Shown here one piece after another: positions 26,990-40,588 of a stretch of 64,000 nucleotides of DNA. The notes beneath the pieces are model-generated. The model was given only the letters and a program-made list of their open reading frames with translations. It was not told the DNA's origin and ran no database searches. The DNA is from Bacteroidales bacterium (GTDB taxonomy: Bacteria > Bacteroidota > Bacteroidia > Bacteroidales > FEN-979): NCBI GenBank assembly GCA_025355465.1, contig JANXZO010000034.1:1-64000 (forward strand), in the 5' to 3' direction. The position numbers and the translations under genes are program-made. Numbering within the stretch: the stretch's first letter is position 1; each line of letters starts with the position of its first letter.

Positions 26990-29900
26990 TCAGGTCCAGT
27001 TCTTCACCATCTCCACCAGCAGGTCGGGATCGAAGGGCTTTGAGATATAATCATTGCAACCGGACATGAGATACTTCTCACGGTCATCTTTCATCGCATG
27101 TGCAGTGAGGGCAATCACAGGAATATGGTTTCTTGACGGGTTCTCCCGGATTCTTCGCAGAACGGTAAGTCCATCCATTTTAGGCAGCCCCATATCCAGA
27201 AGGATGAGGTCGGGGTTGACTTTTTCCAGCAGTTCGAGGGCAGCCTGTCCGTCGGAAGCTTCCACCAGGCGGCACACTCCGCCAATCACAGCCCTTACGG
27301 TTACCTGGTTGTCGGGATTGTCTTCAATGAGCATTACGGTCGGCATAGTTCCGGTTCCGGGTTTACCGGCTGCTTTGGTTTTGCCGGCAACGGGTTTGGC
27401 CGGTTCAGCCACCGCCACTTCGGCAGCAGGGGCGGGATTATCCCGGGTGATCATGTGCTGAACTTTTGCGAGCAACTCCTGCCGGTCGATGTCTCCTTTG
27501 TGAAGCAGCTGTTTGATGTTGTTCGATTTCAACCGTGCAAGGTCTTCACGTGTCAGGTTCTTGGCGGTTAAAATCAGCACCGGAATGTTGCATGTTGCCG
27601 GCGCACTGCGGATGGAATCAAGCACCATGAATCCATCTACCTTCGGCATCATCAGGTCGAGAATGATACCATCCGGCACATGGGTTTTGGTATACTGAAG
27701 CGCCTCCTCCCCTCCGTGGGCCACATCAACCTGGTAGCCGGCGGGTTCAAGCACCGATCTGATCTGAAGGATAACGATCTCATTGTCGTCAACTATCAGT
27801 ATCCTGGGTTTGTTGCCAATTGGATAATAACGGGTCTCTTCAAGGTCTTTCAGCAGCCGGGTCAACTCCCCGAGGACCTTTTCCGAGTCGGTGCTGCCTT
27901 TAACCAGGAAGGAGCTGATTTTACCCTGGAGTTCAGCTTTTTCATTGGTGGACAGGTCCTTTGCCGAGATAATGATCACCGGGATGTTTAGGGTTCGCGG
28001 GTCGTTGCGTAACAATTTGAGCAGTTCAAAGCCATCCATGCCCGGCATCACCAGATCGAGCAGGATCAGGTCGGGCATATCATTGCGCAACAACTCCATC
28101 GCTCCGTACCCATTCTCTGCCTCAAGAACCTGGTAATCCTGCGATTTCACAAGGCGAACCACCTCTGAACGTTCAATAATATTATCGTCGACCACCATGA
28201 TTGTTTTGGCTCCGGATGGTCTGACCCGCTGTATTTCGCGGAGGAGTATTTCCGGCCTTATCGGCTTCATCAGGTATCCCGAAGCCCCCAGTGCAAAACC
28301 GGTATCCTGATCGGGAGAAACCGAGATCATGATCACAGGTATATGGCTGGTATGCTGGTTTTGTTTCAGGGTTTGAAGAATTTTCCACCCGTCTATTTCC
28401 GGCATCAGCACATCCAGCGTAATGGCGTAGGGCTGCATCTGTTCAGCCATCTTTACGGCTTCACTGCTTTTCAGACAGGCAACGGTGCGGTATCCTTCTC
28501 GGGCCAGACTAGCAGCCACGAGGTTGATCACGGCAGGTTCATCGTCTACGATAAGGATGGTACGGTCTTTCTGTTCATTTCTTACCGCTACAAACGGGTC
28601 GCGTGGCAAAGGCAGGTTTGATTCTCCTTCATACTTCAGCGGAAGCAGGATAGTGAACGCTGACCCTTTGCCAGGTTCGCTCTCGGCATATATCCTGCCG
28701 CCCAGCAGCATGGCCAGTCTTCTGGCAATGGCCAGTCCCAGTCCGGATCCCTCGAAGGAGCGGCTGGAGGAACCGTCAACCTGCCTGAATTCATCGAAAA
28801 TGGTGGGCAGGTCTTGTTTCGAAATCCCGATGCCGGTATCGGTGATGGTTATGGTTACATGGGTTGAGTCGGCCTTTCCGGCAATGGTGATTTTTCCTTT
28901 GCTGGTGAACTTCACCGCATTGCCGGCAATGTTCTGTACGATCTGGTAAACTTTCTTTTCATCGCTCTGGATCCGGGGAAAATTTTCGGGAAAGGAGCAG
29001 TCAATGTCGATGGACTTATTTACGCAGATCGGCCGGAGTCCGGCAACGATCTGGTCGGCGATTTCGGGCAGGGAGATATCCCTTACGGAGATGTCCATCT
29101 TGCCGGCTTCGATGCGGGAGAGATCGAGGATGTCGTTGATGAGGGACAAAAGCAGCTTGCCGTTGCGTTCGATGATATCGAGATAATTGAGCTCATCGCT
29201 GGTGAGTTTATCCTTGGCTTGCATGTTGAGCACCCTGGAGAGCGCCATGATGCTGTTTAGCGGTGTTCTAAGTTCGTGGCTCATGTTCGACAAAAACTCG
29301 CTCTTCATCCGGTTTGCGTCATCCACCTGCTTTTTCTGCATCTCCAGTTCCACATTCTGGGCCTGCAGTTCCGTGGACTGATGCTGCAGCTCTTCCGTTT
29401 GTGTCTGCAACTCTTCGGCCTGCGCCTGCAGCCTTTCCGATTGGGTCTGAAGTTCTGTGTTACGCAACTCCAGCTCTGTTGCAAGCAGCCTGATCCTGAG
29501 GTTCGATTGGAGGTTGGCAAAGGCGGTGTTGATGGCGATCTGAGTGTTTTTCACAATGGTGAGGGTCTCTTCCGAAAATTCAGACAAGGTACCCAGAACA
29601 ACCATGGCGGTAAGTTCTTTGCCGAGTGACAGGGGAATATAGAGTAACTCCCGGGGCATGGTTTCGCCAAGCACATTCCTGTAGGTAAACATGCTGTCGG
29701 GCGGGAGCTTCTGAATAAGCAGGATATCCCGCTTTAAAATTACTTCACCCATATCACCTTCCATACTTTCGATGTCGTACGGCCTCAGCGCCTCCTTGTT
29801 GATGCCGATGGAGACCAGCGGAACCAGCTCCTTGTGGTCGCTGCTTACAACATACACCAGCCCTACGGAAGATTTCGAAAGCTCAATAAGTTTTTGCAGC

Positions 29901-31102
29901 AGTCCGGTCGAGAAGGTGTCCATATCCTGTGCATGGATCATGGTAGAAGAGATAACCCCCTCACCATGCTGAACGAGGATACGGCTCTGGAGGGCATCGG
30001 CTGTTTTATTGATTGTTTTGGCGAGGAATCCGAATTCGTCGTCGCGGGTTTTTTCGATGCGGCTCCCAAAGTCGCCATTCATGATCTTCTGTGCGATGTC
30101 AACCATGTTCTTTATTGGTTTGCCCATGTTCCGGGCAATCGCCAGGGCCATGATCACAACCGCAACAATGCTGAGAAGTGTGATGATGGCGAAGAAAGTG
30201 TACATCCTGTCGATGGCCGACATCATGTCTTTTACGTCGCGTTTCACGATCAAACCCCATTTCATTACCGGAATCGGCGCATAGGCAGCGATGACCGGTT
30301 CGCCGCGATAGTCCTTGGTTTCCGCTGTATTGGTAATTCCCCGTGAGGATTCGGTGGCAGGCCGGGTTTTTAACATAACCTCCAGGATGGCGCCCGGTTT
30401 ATGGCGCAGTTCGCTGAGTACATAACCTTCCCGGTTTACGATCAGCGATTCTCCGGTGGTTCCCAAGCCGATACGGTTCATCAGCAGCGGATACAACACA
30501 TTTTCAAGCGAGATCCGGAGAACCACCACGGCGATCAGTTTATCCGGCTTTTGAAGAGAGAATACCGGCATGGCGAAGGCCATGGAAGGCCTCTTCTCAA
30601 TAGAGGAGAGGTAGACATCTTTCAGGAAAAGATTCCGGGTAGCTTTGGTCACGGTGAAGTAGGGATCTTCGGATTTGTTTAAACCTTCCTGCGACCGGTT
30701 GCTCGAAATCACAATGTTGCCATCGCTGCCATCCAGAAGGAATATTTCGATGTAGTCCTTGGTGTTTTTCACCCATTCGTTGAAATACTGACGTGCCTCT
30801 TTAATGAGACGCTGCTGATTTTCGCCCTTTTTGTTGTCGAAATAGCCGCTTCTGTCAAGGTTTCGCAGAACAGGGCTCCGGGAAATCGTAAAAGCGTCAC
30901 CCTGGCGGTCAAGGAGCCAGGTATTGACCTGCATGACCTTAAGATCGCGGATGGCCAGCAGTTTCTCCATTTCCGACTCGTGGATGTGAGCGGTGAAATA
31001 GAGAATGATCGCGACGAACGAAGTGAAGAGGGGAATCAGTGAGATGACAAGAAACCAGAATATGAACCGCGATTTGATGGTTTTGAAACTAAATTTTTTC
31101 AT
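26990..31102 (-). CDS. Hybrid sensor histidine kinase with four receiver domains
   Basis: A 1370-residue membrane protein. A transmembrane helix at about 13-38, an extracytoplasmic Cache-like sensor at 45-295, a second helix near 298-320 and HAMP at 320-372 come first. A GAF-like domain (about 395-530) and a glutamine/glutamate-rich coiled coil follow. The HisKA domain has H609 in SNMSHELRTPLN. The HATPase_c domain has DTGIGISKQDL and GSGLGLAI. Four receiver domains end the protein, each with a DD/ED pocket and an aspartate: TLDVLMPEIDG, LLDLVMPGMDG, ILDLMMPKVDG and LLDMGLPKMDG. An alanine/proline/lysine linker separates the third from the fourth. No DNA-binding output is present, so the protein is likely a phosphorelay hub. 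It overlaps the CheR gene by four bases. Confidence 0.93.
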   Translation of the reverse strand: MKKFSFKTIKSRFIFWFLVISLIPLFTSFVAIILYFTAHIHESEMEKLLAIRDLKVMQVNTWLLDRQGDAFTISRSPVLRNLDRSGYFDNKKGENQQRLIKEARQYFNEWVKNTKDYIEIFLLDGSDGNIVISSNRSQEGLNKSEDPYFTVTKATRNLFLKDVYLSSIEKRPSMAFAMPVFSLQKPDKLIAVVVLRISLENVLYPLLMNRIGLGTTGESLIVNREGYVLSELRHKPGAILEVMLKTRPATESSRGITNTAETKDYRGEPVIAAYAPIPVMKWGLIVKRDVKDMMSAIDRMYTFFAIITLLSIVAVVIMALAIARNMGKPIKNMVDIAQKIMNGDFGSRIEKTRDDEFGFLAKTINKTADALQSRILVQHGEGVISSTMIHAQDMDTFSTGLLQKLIELSKSSVGLVYVVSSDHKELVPLVSIGINKEALRPYDIESMEGDMGEVILKRDILLIQKLPPDSMFTYRNVLGETMPRELLYIPLSLGKELTAMVVLGTLSEFSEETLTIVKNTQIAINTAFANLQSNLRIRLLATELELRNTELQTQSERLQAQAEELQTQTEELQHQSTELQAQNVELEMQKKQVDDANRMKSEFLSNMSHELRTPLNSIMALSRVLNMQAKDKLTSDELNYLDIIERNGKLLLSLINDILDLSRIEAGKMDISVRDISLPEIADQIVAGLRPICVNKSIDIDCSFPENFPRIQSDEKKVYQIVQNIAGNAVKFTSKGKITIAGKADSTHVTITITDTGIGISKQDLPTIFDEFRQVDGSSSRSFEGSGLGLAIARRLAMLLGGRIYAESEPGKGSAFTILLPLKYEGESNLPLPRDPFVAVRNEQKDRTILIVDDEPAVINLVAASLAREGYRTVACLKSSEAVKMAEQMQPYAITLDVLMPEIDGWKILQTLKQNQHTSHIPVIMISVSPDQDTGFALGASGYLMKPIRPEILLREIQRVRPSGAKTIMVVDDNIIERSEVVRLVKSQDYQVLEAENGYGAMELLRNDMPDLILLDLVMPGMDGFELLKLLRNDPRTLNIPVIIISAKDLSTNEKAELQGKISSFLVKGSTDSEKVLGELTRLLKDLEETRYYPIGNKPRILIVDDNEIVILQIRSVLEPAGYQVDVAHGGEEALQYTKTHVPDGIILDLMMPKVDGFMVLDSIRSAPATCNIPVLILTAKNLTREDLARLKSNNIKQLLHKGDIDRQELLAKVQHMITRDNPAPAAEVAVAEPAKPVAGKTKAAGKPGTGTMPTVMLIEDNPDNQVTVRAVIGGVCRLVEASDGQAALELLEKVNPDLILLDMGLPKMDGLTVLRRIRENPSRNHIPVIALTAHAMKDDREKYLMSGCNDYISKPFDPDLLVEMVKNWT

Positions 31103-31932
31103 AGCTGCATTTTTTGAAAAACTTTGGCGATTCGGTTAATTTCCCTGAAGGCGTTACTGTATTTAGCATGTATGCTTTCTGACTCCCCGAGAACAAGGTA
31201 TCCGCCGGGGCTGAGAGAACGGAATATTTTGTAGAAGATTTTTTCCTGGTATTCCGGATTGAAGTAGATGAGGACATTCCGGCACAGGACCATGTCGAAC
31301 ATCCCGAATACACTTTCGGGCGGTGCAAAGTTGGTTGGATCGAGCAGGTCGTACCGGGAAAAACTTACCATGCTCTTTACCGCTTTGGAAATTTTGTAAA
31401 ATTCTCCATCCTGTTTGAAATATTTGTTGAGATAACCAAACTTGACTTCATTCATGGTGGCAGCTCCATAAATTCCTTTTTTCGCGAACCGGATTGCTTT
31501 TTCATCCATGTCGGTGGCGAAAATGGTACTTTCGAATGGCTGACTCTCCCGGCTAAAGGTGTCTGAAAGAATGATGGACAAGCTGTAAGGCTCCTCACCT
31601 GTTGCGCAGCCCGCCGACCAGATCCGGAATTCATGGTTTCCGGAAGTGATTTTACTGTGAAGCAAGGCAGGCAGAAGCTGTTGTGAAATTATTTCGAAGG
31701 TGAGCGAATTTCGAAAAAACATGCTTACCGAAATTGTCAGTGTTTCGATCAGTTTTTCGGCTTCACCCGGTGTGCTTTGCAGCAGACGGGAGTAATCGCT
31801 GATGTTGCCGGCATGGGTCTCCTCCACACGCACCATGATCCTTCGCAGAAGCATTGATGGGTAGTGCCCGGCATAGTCATAACCGCACTCCTTATTCAGA
31901 AAGTTGATTATATCGGTGATGGTTTTTTTCAA
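31099..31932 (-). CDS. CheR-type protein-glutamate O-methyltransferase
   Basis: A 277-residue protein with the CheR N-terminal helical domain (SMLLRRIMVRVEETHAGNIS, TISVSMFFRNSLTFE) and a SAM-dependent methyltransferase domain. The glycine-rich SAM motif is at 105-117 (WSAGCATGEEPYS), with the acidic FATDMDEKAI and catalytic-region FDMVLCRNVLIYF further on. The family methylates glutamates on chemoreceptors using S-adenosylmethionine. No chemoreceptor, CheA, CheB or CheW gene is present here. The four-base overlap with the hybrid kinase downstream suggests a dedicated partner role in that signalling pathway, with methylation of the kinase's long glutamate-rich coiled coil as a plausible but untested idea. 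Confidence 0.93.
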   Translation of the reverse strand: MKKTITDIINFLNKECGYDYAGHYPSMLLRRIMVRVEETHAGNISDYSRLLQSTPGEAEKLIETLTISVSMFFRNSLTFEIISQQLLPALLHSKITSGNHEFRIWSAGCATGEEPYSLSIILSDTFSRESQPFESTIFATDMDEKAIRFAKKGIYGAATMNEVKFGYLNKYFKQDGEFYKISKAVKSMVSFSRYDLLDPTNFAPPESVFGMFDMVLCRNVLIYFNPEYQEKIFYKIFRSLSPGGYLVLGESESIHAKYSNAFREINRIAKVFQKMQL

Positions 31933-34941: not shown

Positions 34942-34979
34942 AGGCGCGGCGAAGTTAGTGAAAGATGACAAAAAAGTGC

Positions 34980-34987
34980 TATTTTTG
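34980..34987 (+). promoter_or_regulatory. -7 box of the carbamate kinase gene
   Basis: TATTTTTG fits TAnnTTTG and ends 22 bases before the ATG at 35010. No clear -33 element was seen. Confidence 0.5.
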
Positions 34988-35009
34988 CCCCTGCTTAACC
35001 TTACAATCC

Positions 35010-35954
35010 ATGAAGAAACTTGCTGTTGTTGCCCTCGGAGGTAACGCACTCCTCCGCTCTGATCAGAAAGGCACCATCGACGAACAGGAGGCCAATGCCT
35101 ACGCCACCGGCGAAAGCCTTGTAAAACTCATCAAACGAGATTATAATATTGTTATTACCCATGGGAATGGTCCCCAGGTCGGCAACATCATGCTGGCCAA
35201 TTCGGCCGGGTACAAGATGTTCGGCATCCCGGAAATGCCATTGGATATCTGTGTGGCATACTCCCAGGGATTTATCGGTTACATCATCGAACAGCAGCTG
35301 AAAAATGTGCTTGAACTGCACGACATGGAGCGCGACATCATGACCATTGCCACGCGGGTGCTGGTTAACAAGGACGATCCTGCCTTTGCCAATCCTACCA
35401 AGCCGGTCGGACCCTATTACACGCGGGAAGAGGCCGACAAATCGACAGCCGATACCGGTGCGGTATTCAGGGAGGATCCGCGGGGACGGGGGTGGCGGAA
35501 AGTGGTAGCCTCTCCGCGTCCGCTGGTCATCCTCAACAAGAAATCCATCGAAAAAATTGCCCGGGAGGGTCAGATCGTGATTGCCGTGGGCGGCGGCGGT
35601 ATTCCGGTATTTTACGTGGAACCCAATAAACTGCAGGGGATCGATGCCGTTATCGACAAGGACCTTGCTTCGGCGCTGCTGGCTTCACAGATCAATGCCG
35701 ACAAGTTTTTTATTCTCACCGATGTGCCCAAGGTCTGCATCAACTTCAACACGCCTCAGGAGAAAAACCTCGACCGTTTGTCTATTTTTGAAGCCAAGAG
35801 ATACCTGGAGGAGGGTCAGTTCCCGGAAGGAAGCATGGGGCCGAAAATTCGGGCAGCCATTCATTTCGTTGAAAATTCGGGCAAAGATACCATCATCACC
35901 AAGACCACAATGCTGGGTATCGACAATGGTGGAACACGAATTACCTTAGTGTAA
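35010..35954 (+). CDS. arcC: Carbamate kinase
   Basis: A 314-residue amino-acid kinase family protein. The start at 35010 (MKKLAVVALGGNALLRSDQ) is at the family's typical N-terminus; a longer frame has 15 unrelated residues. Motifs: GGNALL, THGNGPQVGN, GYIIEQQLKN, PVGPYYTREEADK, VVASPRPLVIL, AVGGGGIPV and FVENSGKDTIIT at the end. The enzyme interconverts carbamoyl phosphate plus ADP with carbamate plus ATP. No arginine deiminase or ornithine carbamoyltransferase gene is near, so it may work in agmatine, purine or other carbamoyl-phosphate catabolism, or for supply. It converges with the TM1266-like gene, which ends one base away. Confidence 0.94.
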   Translation: MKKLAVVALGGNALLRSDQKGTIDEQEANAYATGESLVKLIKRDYNIVITHGNGPQVGNIMLANSAGYKMFGIPEMPLDICVAYSQGFIGYIIEQQLKNVLELHDMERDIMTIATRVLVNKDDPAFANPTKPVGPYYTREEADKSTADTGAVFREDPRGRGWRKVVASPRPLVILNKKSIEKIAREGQIVIAVGGGGIPVFYVEPNKLQGIDAVIDKDLASALLASQINADKFFILTDVPKVCINFNTPQEKNLDRLSIFEAKRYLEEGQFPEGSMGPKIRAAIHFVENSGKDTIITKTTMLGIDNGGTRITLV

Positions 35955-35955
35955 A

Positions 35956-36213
35956 TTACCCCGGAAACACCATCTTCTTGACGTCGAGTCCGTCGATCTT
36001 CAGCAGTTCGTTCTCGAGCTTGTAAAACTCTTCCTCGTTACCGGTCAGTTCAAGCAGCACAATGCCGCAGGAAGCGTTATGTCCCTCCTTCAGGTCATGC
36101 AGTCCGAGTCGGGTTTTGATGGTGCATCCGAATTTGGAAAGAACTGCCTGTACCGCTGATACATCCTTGGTGCGGTTGGTTATGTGAAGTCCGAGAATCC
36201 AGGTTTCGTTCAT
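35956..36213 (-). CDS. TM1266-like small regulator, distal copy
   Basis: An 85-residue ferredoxin-like/ACT-type protein. Features shared with the copy at 37910-38167: an ILGLHITNR start, LSKFGCTIKTRLGLHD, a cysteine followed by GIVLLELTGNEEE, and a GLDVKKMVFPG end. This matches the TM1266 group, often annotated as iron-only hydrogenase system putative regulator. The four-base ATGA overlap with the kinase gene upstream shows it belongs to the hydG operon. It has a conserved-looking cysteine (CGIV) where the other copy has CSRVGVI. Ligand and output are unknown; a metabolite or metal sensor is the family guess. Confidence 0.8.
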   Translation of the reverse strand: MNETWILGLHITNRTKDVSAVQAVLSKFGCTIKTRLGLHDLKEGHNASCGIVLLELTGNEEEFYKLENELLKIDGLDVKKMVFPG

Positions 36214-37898
36214 GACTGTGGGGTATGTTGGCTGAAATTTGTGTTCGGGATCAGATTTCGGAACTGCATGGTAAACGAGGTGCCGTGATCGTTCCGGTGA
36301 ACGATTTTCGCGTCGAGTTGCTCCACCAGCAGGCGAATGATGAACATACCGAGCGAGGTCTGGGTTTCCATGTTGAAATTTTCCGGCAGCCCTATGCCAT
36401 TGTCTGTCACCGTAAGGGTCAGGCTGTCTCCTTCCCCTTTACGCAACCGAATGGTGATCTCACCCTGGTGTTGGATGGGGAATGCATATTTGAAGGCATT
36501 GGTAAGCAGTTCGTTGGTGATGAGGCCGAGGGGGAGCGCCGTTTCGATACTTACTTCGGCAGGATCGAGATCGGTGATGAGATTTACCTTGTGTCCGCTG
36601 AAGGTTCCCATGATAATGGAGGCCAGCGAACGTAAGTAGCTGTCGAGCGGGATCCGGTCGAGGTTGTCTGAGCGGTAAAGATGTTCATGGATCAGCGCCA
36701 TCGACCGGATGCGCATCTCGATATCCCTGATGATGCGTCGCAGTTCAGGATCGGAATTGTTGCGGAGTTGCAGGTTCAGCAAGCTTACCACAATGGCGAG
36801 ATTGTTTTTGACGCGGTGGTGTATTTCGCGAAGCAGCGTCTCTTTCTGATCGATGTTTTTCTGCTTCAGCTCCTCGATCTCTTTTTCCTTCGACCGGTTT
36901 CTCATGATGATCATGACCTGGATCACTTCATTGTCACGGAAAATGGGAACCTTGCGGGTCTCCCCGTAAATGGTCCTGTCGCGCAGGAAAAGCTGCTGTT
37001 CTCCAATCAGGATCTCACCGGTTTTGAACACGTGGTTTATCTCGTCCAGTGTTGTAGCGGGGATGTAAGGATAAACTTTGTTGATTTTCTTACCGATGCA
37101 GTTGATGGGAAAACCCTGCCGGAGATGTTCCTCCTCAAGGAAGGAGTTGAGCATGACGAATTTCATCTCCTTGTCGAGCACATATATCCAGTCGGGAATT
37201 GAATCGAGGGTCTGATGATACTGGTGTTCAGAACTGCGAAGGGCCTCCACCGCATCTTTTCGCTCCCGGGTTTCAGCCAGCAGCTTTTTGTAATTCTCTG
37301 AAAGCGTACGTTTATGAATGAAGTTTTTCCAGTTAAGCTTTTCGATGGTGAAAGCCATAAAAAAGCCGAGCGAATATACCGCGATCACGAAAAAGAGGTT
37401 GCTGTGGAAAGCGTAGCTGTTGCCAGCCAGGGTTCCGTTGATGATCGTGGCGAGAGTATAGGAAAGAACCATCAGGGCGCCGATCACGGTGAGTGTGCGG
37501 AAACGCAAACGATGAAAGGTGAAGAACCCGATAATCACCAGCATCACCCACGAAGAATAGTGCTGATAACCCGGTTGCGACAGTGTGGCCGACTGACCTA
37601 CATAGAATATAACTCCACAAGTGGTGAGGTTCAAAACGATAAAAATGGTAGACAGAAATCGCTTCAGTGCCGGAATGTAAATTGCAACCACTGCCGTCAC
37701 GATGAAGGGTCCGATCAGTCCGAATCGCAGGTAAAATTTTGTCTCCGGCAGACCGGGATACATCACCCGGTTGAAAACGGCAAAGAGGATGAAGAGCGCC
37801 AGGGTAATGATCAGGCCAACCTTCATCAAAGGCAGCGAAGAGGAGAGGTAAAACTGTAAAAATTCCCTGTTCAGATCATTTTTCGGAACCTTGCTCAT
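36210..37898 (-). CDS. Membrane PAS histidine kinase (HisKA_2 type) in the hydG operon
   Basis: A 562-residue kinase. Residues about 20-190 contain around six membrane helices (LMKVGLIITLALFILFAVFN, VAIYIPALKR, VIIGFFTFHRLR, FFVIAVYSLGFFMAFTIE). A coiled linker leads to a PAS domain at about 225-335 (LDSIPDWIYVLDKEMKFVML). The phosphoacceptor motif is EIHHRVKNN with H360-H361. The HATPase_c part has LITNELLTNAFKYAF and TVTDNGIGLP. HisKA_2 kinases usually pair with a stand-alone regulator, and none is present in this operon. It starts 11 bases after one TM1266-like gene and overlaps the second by four bases, so all are probably one transcript. Confidence 0.9.
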   Translation of the reverse strand: MSKVPKNDLNREFLQFYLSSSLPLMKVGLIITLALFILFAVFNRVMYPGLPETKFYLRFGLIGPFIVTAVVAIYIPALKRFLSTIFIVLNLTTCGVIFYVGQSATLSQPGYQHYSSWVMLVIIGFFTFHRLRFRTLTVIGALMVLSYTLATIINGTLAGNSYAFHSNLFFVIAVYSLGFFMAFTIEKLNWKNFIHKRTLSENYKKLLAETRERKDAVEALRSSEHQYHQTLDSIPDWIYVLDKEMKFVMLNSFLEEEHLRQGFPINCIGKKINKVYPYIPATTLDEINHVFKTGEILIGEQQLFLRDRTIYGETRKVPIFRDNEVIQVMIIMRNRSKEKEIEELKQKNIDQKETLLREIHHRVKNNLAIVVSLLNLQLRNNSDPELRRIIRDIEMRIRSMALIHEHLYRSDNLDRIPLDSYLRSLASIIMGTFSGHKVNLITDLDPAEVSIETALPLGLITNELLTNAFKYAFPIQHQGEITIRLRKGEGDSLTLTVTDNGIGLPENFNMETQTSLGMFIIRLLVEQLDAKIVHRNDHGTSFTMQFRNLIPNTNFSQHTPQS

Positions 37899-37909
37899 CC
37901 TGAATGCTT

Positions 37910-38167
37910 TTACAGCGTGAATACCATATGCTGGAGTTCAAGTCCACCTATTTGTCTGAGCTCTTCTTCCAGTCTCAGACACTCCTCTTTATCTCCGGCA
38001 AGCTGAAGTATGATCACGCCAACACGGCTGCACACATCTTCGGTTACTTCATGGAATCCGAGCCTCGATTTGATTACGTGGGCAAATTTCGACAAAAGCT
38101 GCTGGGTTCTGCCGGCCTCTTTGATCCGGTCGGTGATGAGCAAGCCAAGGATCCTGATATCTTTCAT
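37910..38167 (-). CDS. TM1266-like small regulator, hydG-proximal copy
   Basis: An 85-residue protein when started at 38167 (MKDIRILGLLITDRIKEAG). A start 39 bases further up would overlap hydG and add unconserved residues. Shared with the copy at 35956-36213: LLSKFAHVIKSRLGFHEV, GVIILQLAGDKEE, GLELQHMVFTL. Proteins of the TM1266 group are regularly found next to hydrogenase maturation genes. It lies 16 bases after the hydG stop. Having two same-length copies on either side of a kinase gene suggests a heteromeric sensor or one regulator per output; that is inference. Confidence 0.8.
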   Translation of the reverse strand: MKDIRILGLLITDRIKEAGRTQQLLSKFAHVIKSRLGFHEVTEDVCSRVGVIILQLAGDKEECLRLEEELRQIGGLELQHMVFTL

Positions 38168-38183
38168 CGGGCTGATATTTGAA

Positions 38184-39644
38184 TTAAAAATAGAGGTCGC
38201 GCGCACCCTCCTTTATTTTTCTGAGGTTCGCTTCAAGTTTGTCTTTCAGGGTTTTGTCATCAATCTCATCGAGTTTCTCCTGCAACATGGCATAACCTTT
38301 GATTTTCGTCTCGGGTGGTGCATAATCTTCCAGGTATTCGGCCATGGTCATCAGCGCATTGGGCTGACAGTAGCGTTTTATAAAGCCCGGCACCGAAAAT
38401 TCCATAAAGTGTTCGCCGGTGCGTCCAAGCCGGTAACATGCCGTGCAAAACGAGGGGATGTATTTCTGATCGATGAGCTCTTCCATGATCTCGTTCAGAC
38501 TGCGGTTGTCGCTGATCTGAAATTGCTCACGGTCGATGTTCTGTTTTGCCGAAGATTGTTTATCGGCTGCCTGCGGTTCCGTAGCGCCATCCTTGGTATA
38601 ACCGCCGATTTCGATGTTGGTGCCGCCATCGATCTGCGACACACCGAACTGCATGATCTCGTTCCTGATGGCGGCAGGTTCACGGGCGGTAAGAATAAGT
38701 CCGGTATAGGGCACAGCCAGCCGGAGAATGGCAACCAGCCGGGTAAACGCTTCGTCACTTACGGTATGGTCGGCGCTTATCTTCATCTCGGAGGCATGCT
38801 GAATGCGCGGAAAGGAGATCGTGTGCGGACCGACATTGTACACCGCCTCAAAATGGTTGGTGTGGCGTACCAGTCCCATCACCTCAAACCGCCAGTCGTA
38901 CAATCCGAACAGTGCCCCGATGCCCACATCATCGATACCGGCCTCCTGGGCACGGTCGAGGGCTGTAAGCCGCCAGTCGTAATTTCGCTTCACCCCGCTG
39001 AGGTGAACTTTCATATAGGTCTCCTCGTGGTATGTCTCCTGAAAGATCTGAAAGGTTCCGATGCCTGCATCTTTCACGGTCCTGAAGCCGTCAATGTCGA
39101 GCGGAGCGGCATTGATGTTCACGCGACGGATCTCACCCGGACCGCTCTTTACCGAGTAAACCGTTCTCACCGTATCGGCAATAAACTTTGCATTGTACCA
39201 GGGATGCTCCCCGTAAACCAGGATCAGCCGCTTCTGGCCTGCATCCTCCAAAGCTTTTACCTGGTCCACAAGGTCCTGGTTGTTCAGTGTAACCCGCTGG
39301 ATTTTTTTGTTGGAGGCTTTGAATCCGCAGTAACTGCAGTTGTTGGTGCACATATTGCCGATGTACAGCGGTGCGAAAAGGACGATGCGTTGTCCGTACA
39401 CTTTTTCTTTCAGCGCCTTGGCCCCCTGCTTTATCTCTTCAATTAGGTCGGGTTCGTCGGCATTGATAAGGATGGCCGTCTCCTGCAGCGTAAGCCTGTT
39501 CTTGTCGAGCGATTTGGCAATAATCTCGCGAACGCGTTCCTTTGTTGCCTTTGATTGTTTGAGGTAGCCCCAGAGTTCGTTCGCATCAATGAACGGCCTC
39601 ATGCGCTGATCCTTTATCTTGAGTTTTTCCGGAGTGAAAATCAT
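38184..39644 (-). CDS. hydG: [FeFe]-hydrogenase H-cluster radical-SAM maturase HydG
   Basis: A 486-residue protein. The N-terminal radical-SAM cluster motif is CTNNCSYC (CX3CX2C) after LFAPLYIGNM. The C-terminal auxiliary cluster motif is CTAC, 22 residues, then C (FCTACYRLGRTG to KRYCQ), the CX2CX22C pattern that separates HydG from the thiamine enzyme ThiH. HydG cleaves tyrosine to make the CO and CN- ligands of the H-cluster iron. Family hallmarks VYGEHPWYNAKFIADTV and GIGALFGLYDWRFEVMGLVR are present. hydE, hydF and the hydrogenase itself are not in this window. It is the first gene of a four-gene minus-strand operon with two TM1266-like proteins and a histidine kinase. Confidence 0.95.
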   Translation of the reverse strand: MIFTPEKLKIKDQRMRPFIDANELWGYLKQSKATKERVREIIAKSLDKNRLTLQETAILINADEPDLIEEIKQGAKALKEKVYGQRIVLFAPLYIGNMCTNNCSYCGFKASNKKIQRVTLNNQDLVDQVKALEDAGQKRLILVYGEHPWYNAKFIADTVRTVYSVKSGPGEIRRVNINAAPLDIDGFRTVKDAGIGTFQIFQETYHEETYMKVHLSGVKRNYDWRLTALDRAQEAGIDDVGIGALFGLYDWRFEVMGLVRHTNHFEAVYNVGPHTISFPRIQHASEMKISADHTVSDEAFTRLVAILRLAVPYTGLILTAREPAAIRNEIMQFGVSQIDGGTNIEIGGYTKDGATEPQAADKQSSAKQNIDREQFQISDNRSLNEIMEELIDQKYIPSFCTACYRLGRTGEHFMEFSVPGFIKRYCQPNALMTMAEYLEDYAPPETKIKGYAMLQEKLDEIDDKTLKDKLEANLRKIKEGARDLYF

Positions 39645-39670
39645 AGGACTGTTAATAAGTAACAGGAACG

Positions 39671-39678
39671 CAAAAGTA
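39671..39678 (-). promoter_or_regulatory. -7 box of the hydG operon
   Basis: On the minus strand this reads TACTTTTG, an exact TAnnTTTG match, 26 bases before the hydG start. It implies the hydG operon has its own promoter in the 50-base gap after the second DMT transporter gene. Confidence 0.5.
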
Positions 39679-39694
39679 CAAATTAAATTGCCAG

Positions 39695-40588
39695 TTAGAT
39701 TTCAGCACGGCCTTTCGTTCGTTCTGAGAGATATACTCCGCCAATTACCAAAAATGTTCCGACTATCTTTCTGATACTGAACGATTCAGACATGAGAAAG
39801 TAGGAGAAGAATGCCGTGAATACCGGAATGAGATTTGAGTAAATATTGGATTTACTGACTCCGATGAGTTTTATGGAATGGGCAAAAAAGACAAAGGCTA
39901 CAGAAGAGGCGAAAACTGAAAGAAAAACGAAGGAGCGGATGATCTCTGAATTGACGGGTACCTGTATCGCTGTTTTTGCTTCAAAGACCAGAAACAATGG
40001 CAGGAACAGCACGATGCCGGCGAGGTTTTGCCAGGCAACCAGCAGCAGGGCCGAATACTTGTGGGTAAGTTTCCGTAGCAAAACGGAGAAAAAGAGGGCC
40101 GACAACACAGCGCCGAAAAGGAAGAGCACACCGCGCAGATCCGTATCCAGCGCAAAGTCGTGGCCGATCAGCATAACGAGTACCCCGAGAAATGATACAG
40201 CGATTCCCATCTGGCTTAACCCTGTTAGTCGCTCCCTGATCAGAATAAATGCAATCACCGGCGAAAAGACCGGGATCGTGGCGATGATTACCGCTGCAAC
40301 GGTGGGTGAAGAGTATTTAAGTCCGTAATTTTCACACAGGAAATAGAGGAATGGGTTGAAGAAGGCGCTCAGGATCAGAAGCCCGTAATCATTTTTTGCT
40401 ATTTTTTCGGCACGAAATAAAAAATGGTGGATGGCAAACAACAGCGCGCTTGAAATGACCAGCCGCACAAAAATGATGGTCACCGGCTGATAATATTTCA
40501 GCAGCTGAGCAGACCATATGAACGATAGTCCCCAGAAGAGCATTGCAACAAGTGCATAGAAGTGTGCCGGTAAATGAAATTTTTTCAA
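39695..40588 (-). CDS. EamA/DMT-family transporter (second copy)
   Basis: A 297-residue protein with about ten membrane helices in two EamA units (FYALVAMLFWGLSFIWSAQL, TVAAVIIATIPVFSPVIAFI, NIYSNLIPVFTAFFSYFLMS). It is a different subgroup from the transporter at 34063-34941. It probably moves a small organic metabolite; direction and substrate are unknown. It lies 50 bases upstream of hydG on the same strand, but hydG appears to have its own -7 box, so co-transcription is uncertain. It is divergent from the GIN-domain lipoprotein gene. Confidence 0.88.
   Translation of the reverse strand: MKKFHLPAHFYALVAMLFWGLSFIWSAQLLKYYQPVTIIFVRLVISSALLFAIHHFLFRAEKIAKNDYGLLILSAFFNPFLYFLCENYGLKYSSPTVAAVIIATIPVFSPVIAFILIRERLTGLSQMGIAVSFLGVLVMLIGHDFALDTDLRGVLFLFGAVLSALFFSVLLRKLTHKYSALLLVAWQNLAGIVLFLPLFLVFEAKTAIQVPVNSEIIRSFVFLSVFASSVAFVFFAHSIKLIGVSKSNIYSNLIPVFTAFFSYFLMSESFSIRKIVGTFLVIGGVYLSERTKGRAEI

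Follow-up and report, generated by a model that had tools for sequence, protein, structure and literature searches.

A sensor histidine kinase gene between two tandem small genes downstream of hydG in one family of Bacteroidales

HydG is an enzyme that helps to build the catalytic core of hydrogenases. In the 64 000-nucleotide stretch of Bacteroidales DNA analysed here (the window), hydG is followed on the minus strand by a small gene (tmA), a sensor histidine kinase gene and a second small gene (tmB), with spacings of 16, 11 and -4 bases, the last being an overlap; a sequence-only reading of the window had described this order and these gaps correctly. The same order was found in 26 of the 43 genomes surveyed from the family of the window, in five genera (g1, g152, g153, g154 and g157), a recurrence that is far beyond chance. 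The explanation that we prefer, with about as much belief as doubt, is that a hydG-linked sensor kinase was recruited into this operon and acts through a regulator encoded elsewhere, while the small proteins form a separate, older accessory unit. The features of the locus are as follows.

38184..39644, minus strand: hydG, radical SAM H-cluster maturase (TIGR03955; Radical_SAM and BATS domains)
37910..38167, minus strand: tmA, first-position small protein of the CPF_0552/TM1266 type, 85 aa (NF052672; model compared with 2NZC and the NikR C-domain)
36210..37898, minus strand: sensor histidine kinase, 562 aa (Pfam; invariant H-, N- and G-box residues; structure model)
37314..37898, minus strand: predicted six-helix membrane sensor domain of the kinase (model; relatives on other kinases of the order)
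36885..37208, minus strand: PAS_4 domain of the kinase (Pfam)
35956..36213, minus strand: tmB, second-position small protein of the CPF_0552/TM1266 type, 85 aa (NF052672; overlaps the kinase stop by 4 bases)
39671..39678, minus strand: Bacteroidota -7 promoter box TACTTTTG (TAnnTTTG), 34 bases before the hydG start
34965..35954, plus strand: carbamate kinase, convergent (TIGR00746, over the cut-off); syntenic right edge, outside the operon
39695..40588, minus strand: EamA-type transporter upstream of hydG (PF00892); syntenic left edge

The hydG product, which a genome-wide search found as a single copy, scored 504.6 bits in the TIGR03955 profile search (cut-off 312.15) over residues 14-486 and is, by this match, a true and full-length HydG. 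A TAnnTTTG box was located 13-42 bases before hydG in 37 of the 39 family genomes with readable upstream sequence, while the family-wide gaps were 9-19 bp between tmA and the kinase gene and -4 to 22 bp between the kinase gene and tmB. Since the inner gaps leave no room for a promoter and the box precedes hydG, a hydG-led operon is the natural inference, and the four genes would be expressed as one transcript from the hydG promoter. No Rfam elements were found near the operon, and a putative inverted repeat upstream of hydG was present in the window but not conserved. At the edges, the EamA transporter is a conserved neighbour in the family, and the carbamate kinase is 82-90% identical and holds the same position throughout it. 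Elsewhere in the window (26990-31932) there is a 1370-residue hybrid histidine kinase, apparently with several receiver domains, which is adjoined by a gene for a CheR-like methyltransferase.

The kinase of the operon consists of membrane helices at residues ~6-190, followed by PAS_4 (231-338), HisKA_2 (358-430; PF07568, 90.9 bits) and HATPase_c (456-546; PF02518, 49.9 bits), and the earlier description of a membrane PAS/HisKA_2 kinase was thus borne out. His360, the phospho-acceptor, together with Asn462, Asn467, Asp499, Gly501 and Gly503, was invariant in 20 kinase orthologues; with both domains, the phospho-acceptor and the N and G boxes present, the protein is classed on its sequence as a HisKA_2 histidine kinase. 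The kinase gene is under purifying selection (dN/dS 0.06-0.10) similar to that on tmA and tmB. The structure model showed the N-terminal membrane region as six helices. PAS_4 is deleted in both orthologues from genus g154 (kinases of 431 aa), which makes the membrane domain the constant sensor part of the kinase. Relatives of this domain, at 20-28% identity, are carried by other kinases of the order, which often adjoin receiver-domain genes; none had hydG beside it in the fetched flanks. A fold search with the kinase matched only other kinases and PAS proteins, so that the membrane domain was not identified in this way. Kinases sharing the C-terminal, catalytic half (52-58% identical) are encoded at other places, where their neighbours are non-hydrogenase genes and no obvious regulator adjoined them in the loci read. 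Named genomes gave nothing when scanned with this one kinase sequence; an alignment-based scan returned 22 loci, and the titles of almost all of them name metagenome-assembled genomes of Bacteroidales or Bacteroidetes.

The two small proteins, which are 44% identical to each other, aligned over the whole of the NF052672 (CPF_0552) profile with 88.4 bits for TmB and 78.2 bits for TmA (cut-off 85). Against TIGR03959, the profile of TM1266 proper, they scored 26.0 and 25.6 bits, below the cut-off of 60.8; they were thus not accepted as TM1266 sensu stricto, NF052672 fitting far better, and the label "TM1266-like" given to them beforehand is valid at superfamily level only. An AlphaFold model of TmA (pLDDT 92) found TM1266 (2NZC) as its best match in the PDB, with a TM-score of 0.80-0.81, followed by PII-like proteins and NikR C-domains, and TmA is accordingly modelled with a TM1266-type fold. 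The equal length of 85 residues, correctly reported before, is the family norm: apart from one truncated copy, every TmA has 85-86 aa, and TmB has 85-88 aa with one outlier. Arg14, Arg35 and Gly37 were invariant in 39 small-protein sequences, His39 was nearly so, and a cysteine near position 47 was common; TM1266 itself is without the loop that bears this His and Cys. From the fold resemblance and the conserved residues, a NikR-like role for the pair in sensing a metal or ligand may be envisaged. Family genomes carried two small-gene copies in 35 cases, none in seven and one in one, and this mostly all-or-none distribution suggests that TmA and TmB act together; it shows that a genome usually retains both members of the pair or neither, and that hydG can be retained without them. 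In a tree that is weak, being built on 85-residue sequences, the first-position proteins form one group across families (support 93) and the A and B labels need one change among paired genes. The single tmA group and the fixed labels indicate that the paralogues are old, with an ancient duplication and a fixed order.

The family survey concerned one syntenic site, between the EamA transporter and the convergent carbamate kinase, in 43 genomes, 42 of which have hydG. Among the 26 genomes with the full order, two of them split over contig ends, the kinases were roughly 43-62% identical to that of the window. In three genomes from three genera (G204, G208 and G222) the kinase gene directly follows hydG and no small gene was found anywhere in the assemblies, that of G222 being only 69% complete. 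The reverse arrangement, hydG-tmA-tmB without the kinase, was seen in eight genomes (five of genus g2, plus G230, G236 and G207). In G202 an alkaline phosphatase gene occupies the kinase slot between tmA and tmB (L141:772-2241), with a 4-base overlap with tmA, and two genomes (G200 and G211) have hydG alone. The locus of G221 is cut at a contig end, and G219, at 83% completeness, has no hydG. G201 retains tmB alone at the old site (L150:5103-5366) and has a divergent hydG, of 40% identity, elsewhere (L187:1855-3264). Each of the 29 kinase orthologues is next to either hydG or tmA.

Some of the kinase-free loci carry traces of a former kinase. The translated gap of G207 (L145:5829-5934) contains a remnant, SFTINFPLTPIRKPFNK, that matches the kinase C-terminus; the gap of G211 (L149:6639-6755) contains remnants of the kinase tail and of the start of tmB, and that of G236 (L144:5324-5446) a G2-box-like stretch of the kinase. 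Each of these three scored above all 60 shuffles, G200 being marginal, and they show secondary loss rather than primitive absence. The HydG tree required six changes of kinase state and four of small-gene state, with support too low to tell kinase loss in genus g2 from its original absence.

Profile matches to the small genes were surveyed in 198 genomes of the order. Outside the family, both small genes shared a contig in 24 genomes, and in every one of these the matches were no more than 139 bases apart, leaving no kinase between them; elsewhere in the phylum, outside the order, the matches were single copies. Thus, at the level of the order the kinase is absent from most relatives that have hydG and the small genes, but within the family it is not. 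In other families of the order the genes for a hydrogenase-sensor kinase, REC proteins and Rex often closely precede hydG-tmA-tmB, suggesting that the family of the window moved hydG away from such a cluster. Loci in which hydG-tmA(-tmB) lies a few kb downstream of the sensor kinase, REC and Rex genes were L251, L254, L257, L267-L272, L275, L280, L284-L286 and L290.

In the genome of the window (3.54 Mb, 98.8% complete), no hydE, hydF, hydA or response regulator gene was found in the neighbourhood of the hydG operon, and their reported lack is correct in this local sense. It does not extend to the whole genome, in which hydE is on contig C41, hydF on C1 and five Fe-hydrogenase-domain (HydA-type) genes on C40, so that the maturation set is complete but scattered. 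Contig C40 (L131:13337-19538, L132:1895-14533) encodes three large HydA-type hydrogenases in a Nuo-like layout, two sensor-type proteins with Fe-hydrogenase domains, one of them fused to HisKA/HATPase, and also REC proteins, a SpoIIE-type phosphatase and Rex, without hydG; rex lies with the hydrogenase cluster, on a different contig from hydG. On C41 (L134:7949-9923) a LytTR response regulator gene is divergent from hydE. Counting the window genome, 20 genomes of the family have a full-length LytTR orthologue; in 19 of them it is a neighbour of hydE, and in the twentieth (G219) the flank that was fetched showed no hydE. Many LytTR-hydE genomes have a GCTAAnnTATTAA-like element between the promoter box and the hydE start.

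On the reading that we prefer, one Bacteroidales family would have recruited a membrane sensor histidine kinase into its hydG operon, the insertion point being the junction of an ancient tandem pair of small genes that normally stand side by side. The kinase would read a signal through its six-helix membrane domain, PAS being dispensable in one genus, and would phosphorylate a regulator encoded elsewhere; co-expression with hydG would make its level follow the demand for HydG. TmA and TmB, probably a heteromer of TM1266/NikR-C-type fold, would be a separate and optional accessory unit of H-cluster maturation rather than an obligate partner of the kinase. Because genomes exist that lost either the kinase or the small pair, the data suggest separate units rather than one sensing machine. 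Three observations count against this account: a response regulator was neither found in the operon nor picked out by co-occurrence, the kinase has been lost repeatedly while hydG stays, which would make its role optional, and the alkaline phosphatase of G202 shows that the tmA/tmB junction can take unrelated genes. The strongest rival, which we regard as unlikely, is that the junction is a permissive insertion site and the kinase a passenger, co-transcribed with hydG and serving an unrelated pathway. The phosphatase with its 4-base overlap, the scars of lost kinases in several genomes that retain hydG and the kinases with the same catalytic half beside non-hydrogenase genes would all fit a passenger. 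However, a passenger would not be expected to stay beside hydG in 29 of 29 orthologues, to follow hydG directly in three genera although both small genes are gone, or to be under purifying selection similar to that on tmA and tmB.

The sequence-only reading had proposed that the four genes look like a dedicated sensing unit tied to H-cluster assembly. Its first half survives, as a conserved hydG-linked operon (26 of 43 genomes, with every kinase orthologue beside hydG, a promoter box and purifying selection). The other half, that kinase and small proteins form one unit, in which TmA and TmB bind a HydG product or a cluster intermediate and control the kinase directly, we find quite improbable. 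It would account for the tight co-location conserved in 26 genomes, for a TM1266/NikR-C/PII-like fold typical of ligand-binding regulators, and for the near-invariant Arg14, Arg35 and His39 and the common Cys47. It is opposed by the kinase without the pair in three genomes, the pair without the kinase in eight, the phosphatase in the slot in one, and the adjacency of the kinase-free pair in all same-contig cases outside the family; moreover, the sensor part of the kinase is made of membrane helices, and the cytoplasmic PAS is deleted in g154. More doubtful again is a split two-component system, in which the LytTR regulator next to hydE would receive the signal of the kinase and control the maturation genes. 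The position of this regulator, whose gene diverges from hydE in the genome of the window and neighbours it in 19 of 20, would suit such a role, but kinase and LytTR were both present in 16 genomes, the kinase only in 11, LytTR only in four and neither in seven (Fisher p = 0.29, with too few independent pairs on the tree), and nine g153 genomes and both g152 genomes that have the kinase are without LytTR. As its presence does not follow that of the kinase, LytTR is not supported as the obligate partner; no cognate response regulator was found in the operon and none was identified by co-occurrence.

Parts of this arrangement have counterparts in known systems. The TM1266/TIGR03959 and NF052672 proteins, annotated as 'iron-only hydrogenase system putative regulator', share with TmA and TmB the 2NZC fold and the link to hydG. 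In contrast to TM1266, TmA and TmB have an extra loop holding the conserved His and the common Cys, and their genes are split by a kinase gene; in contrast to other Bacteroidota outside the order, which have one copy, the family of the window has two ordered paralogues. In Thermotoga neapolitana a gene with this annotation is induced together with hydG and hydE (PMC7039931), and in Caldicellulosiruptor bescii Rex represses an operon that joins hydG to a 'CopG family' regulator (PMC6391272); both agree with a HydG link of the small proteins. It is a lead that the C. bescii partner may belong to the same family as TmA and TmB. The likeness extends to Rex, whose gene closely precedes hydG in many families of the order; the C. 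bescii operon has no kinase, and the rex gene of the window genome is on another contig with the hydrogenase cluster. The openly accessible literature yielded reports of co-expression and of control by Rex, but no paper that addresses the function of TM1266. Two-component proteins are also known from hydrogenase-linked sensor modules (a HydA-like sensor fused to a HisKA kinase, REC and Rex), which occur here on C40 and, in other families, upstream of hydG-tmA-tmB; their kinases are of the HisKA type with an Fe-hydrogenase domain, whereas the kinase described here has a membrane domain, is of the HisKA_2 type and is encoded on the downstream side of hydG. Its catalytic half matches HisKA_2/HWE kinases such as the blue-light-activated EL346 (4R3A), from which it differs in having a six-helix membrane sensor and PAS_4 instead of a LOV domain and in being an orphan.

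An operon led by hydG, with the kinase and the older pair evolving separately, is thus a family-level variant. It is conceivable, if rather improbable, that H-cluster maturation has its own two-component control in this lineage, in which a membrane kinase made together with HydG would report H2, redox state or the diatomic products of HydG (CO, cyanide) to a regulator, encoded next to hydE or at another place, and would tune maturation separately from hydrogenase expression. Beyond their annotation as putative regulators of hydrogenase, TM1266-type proteins have no known function. The different states of a single syntenic site in this family amount to a natural experiment: hydG is found by itself, with only the kinase, with only the pair, or with both. 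The survey names the genomes in which the roles of kinase and pair can be separated, and the kinase is a candidate dedicated sensor for hydrogenase maturation.
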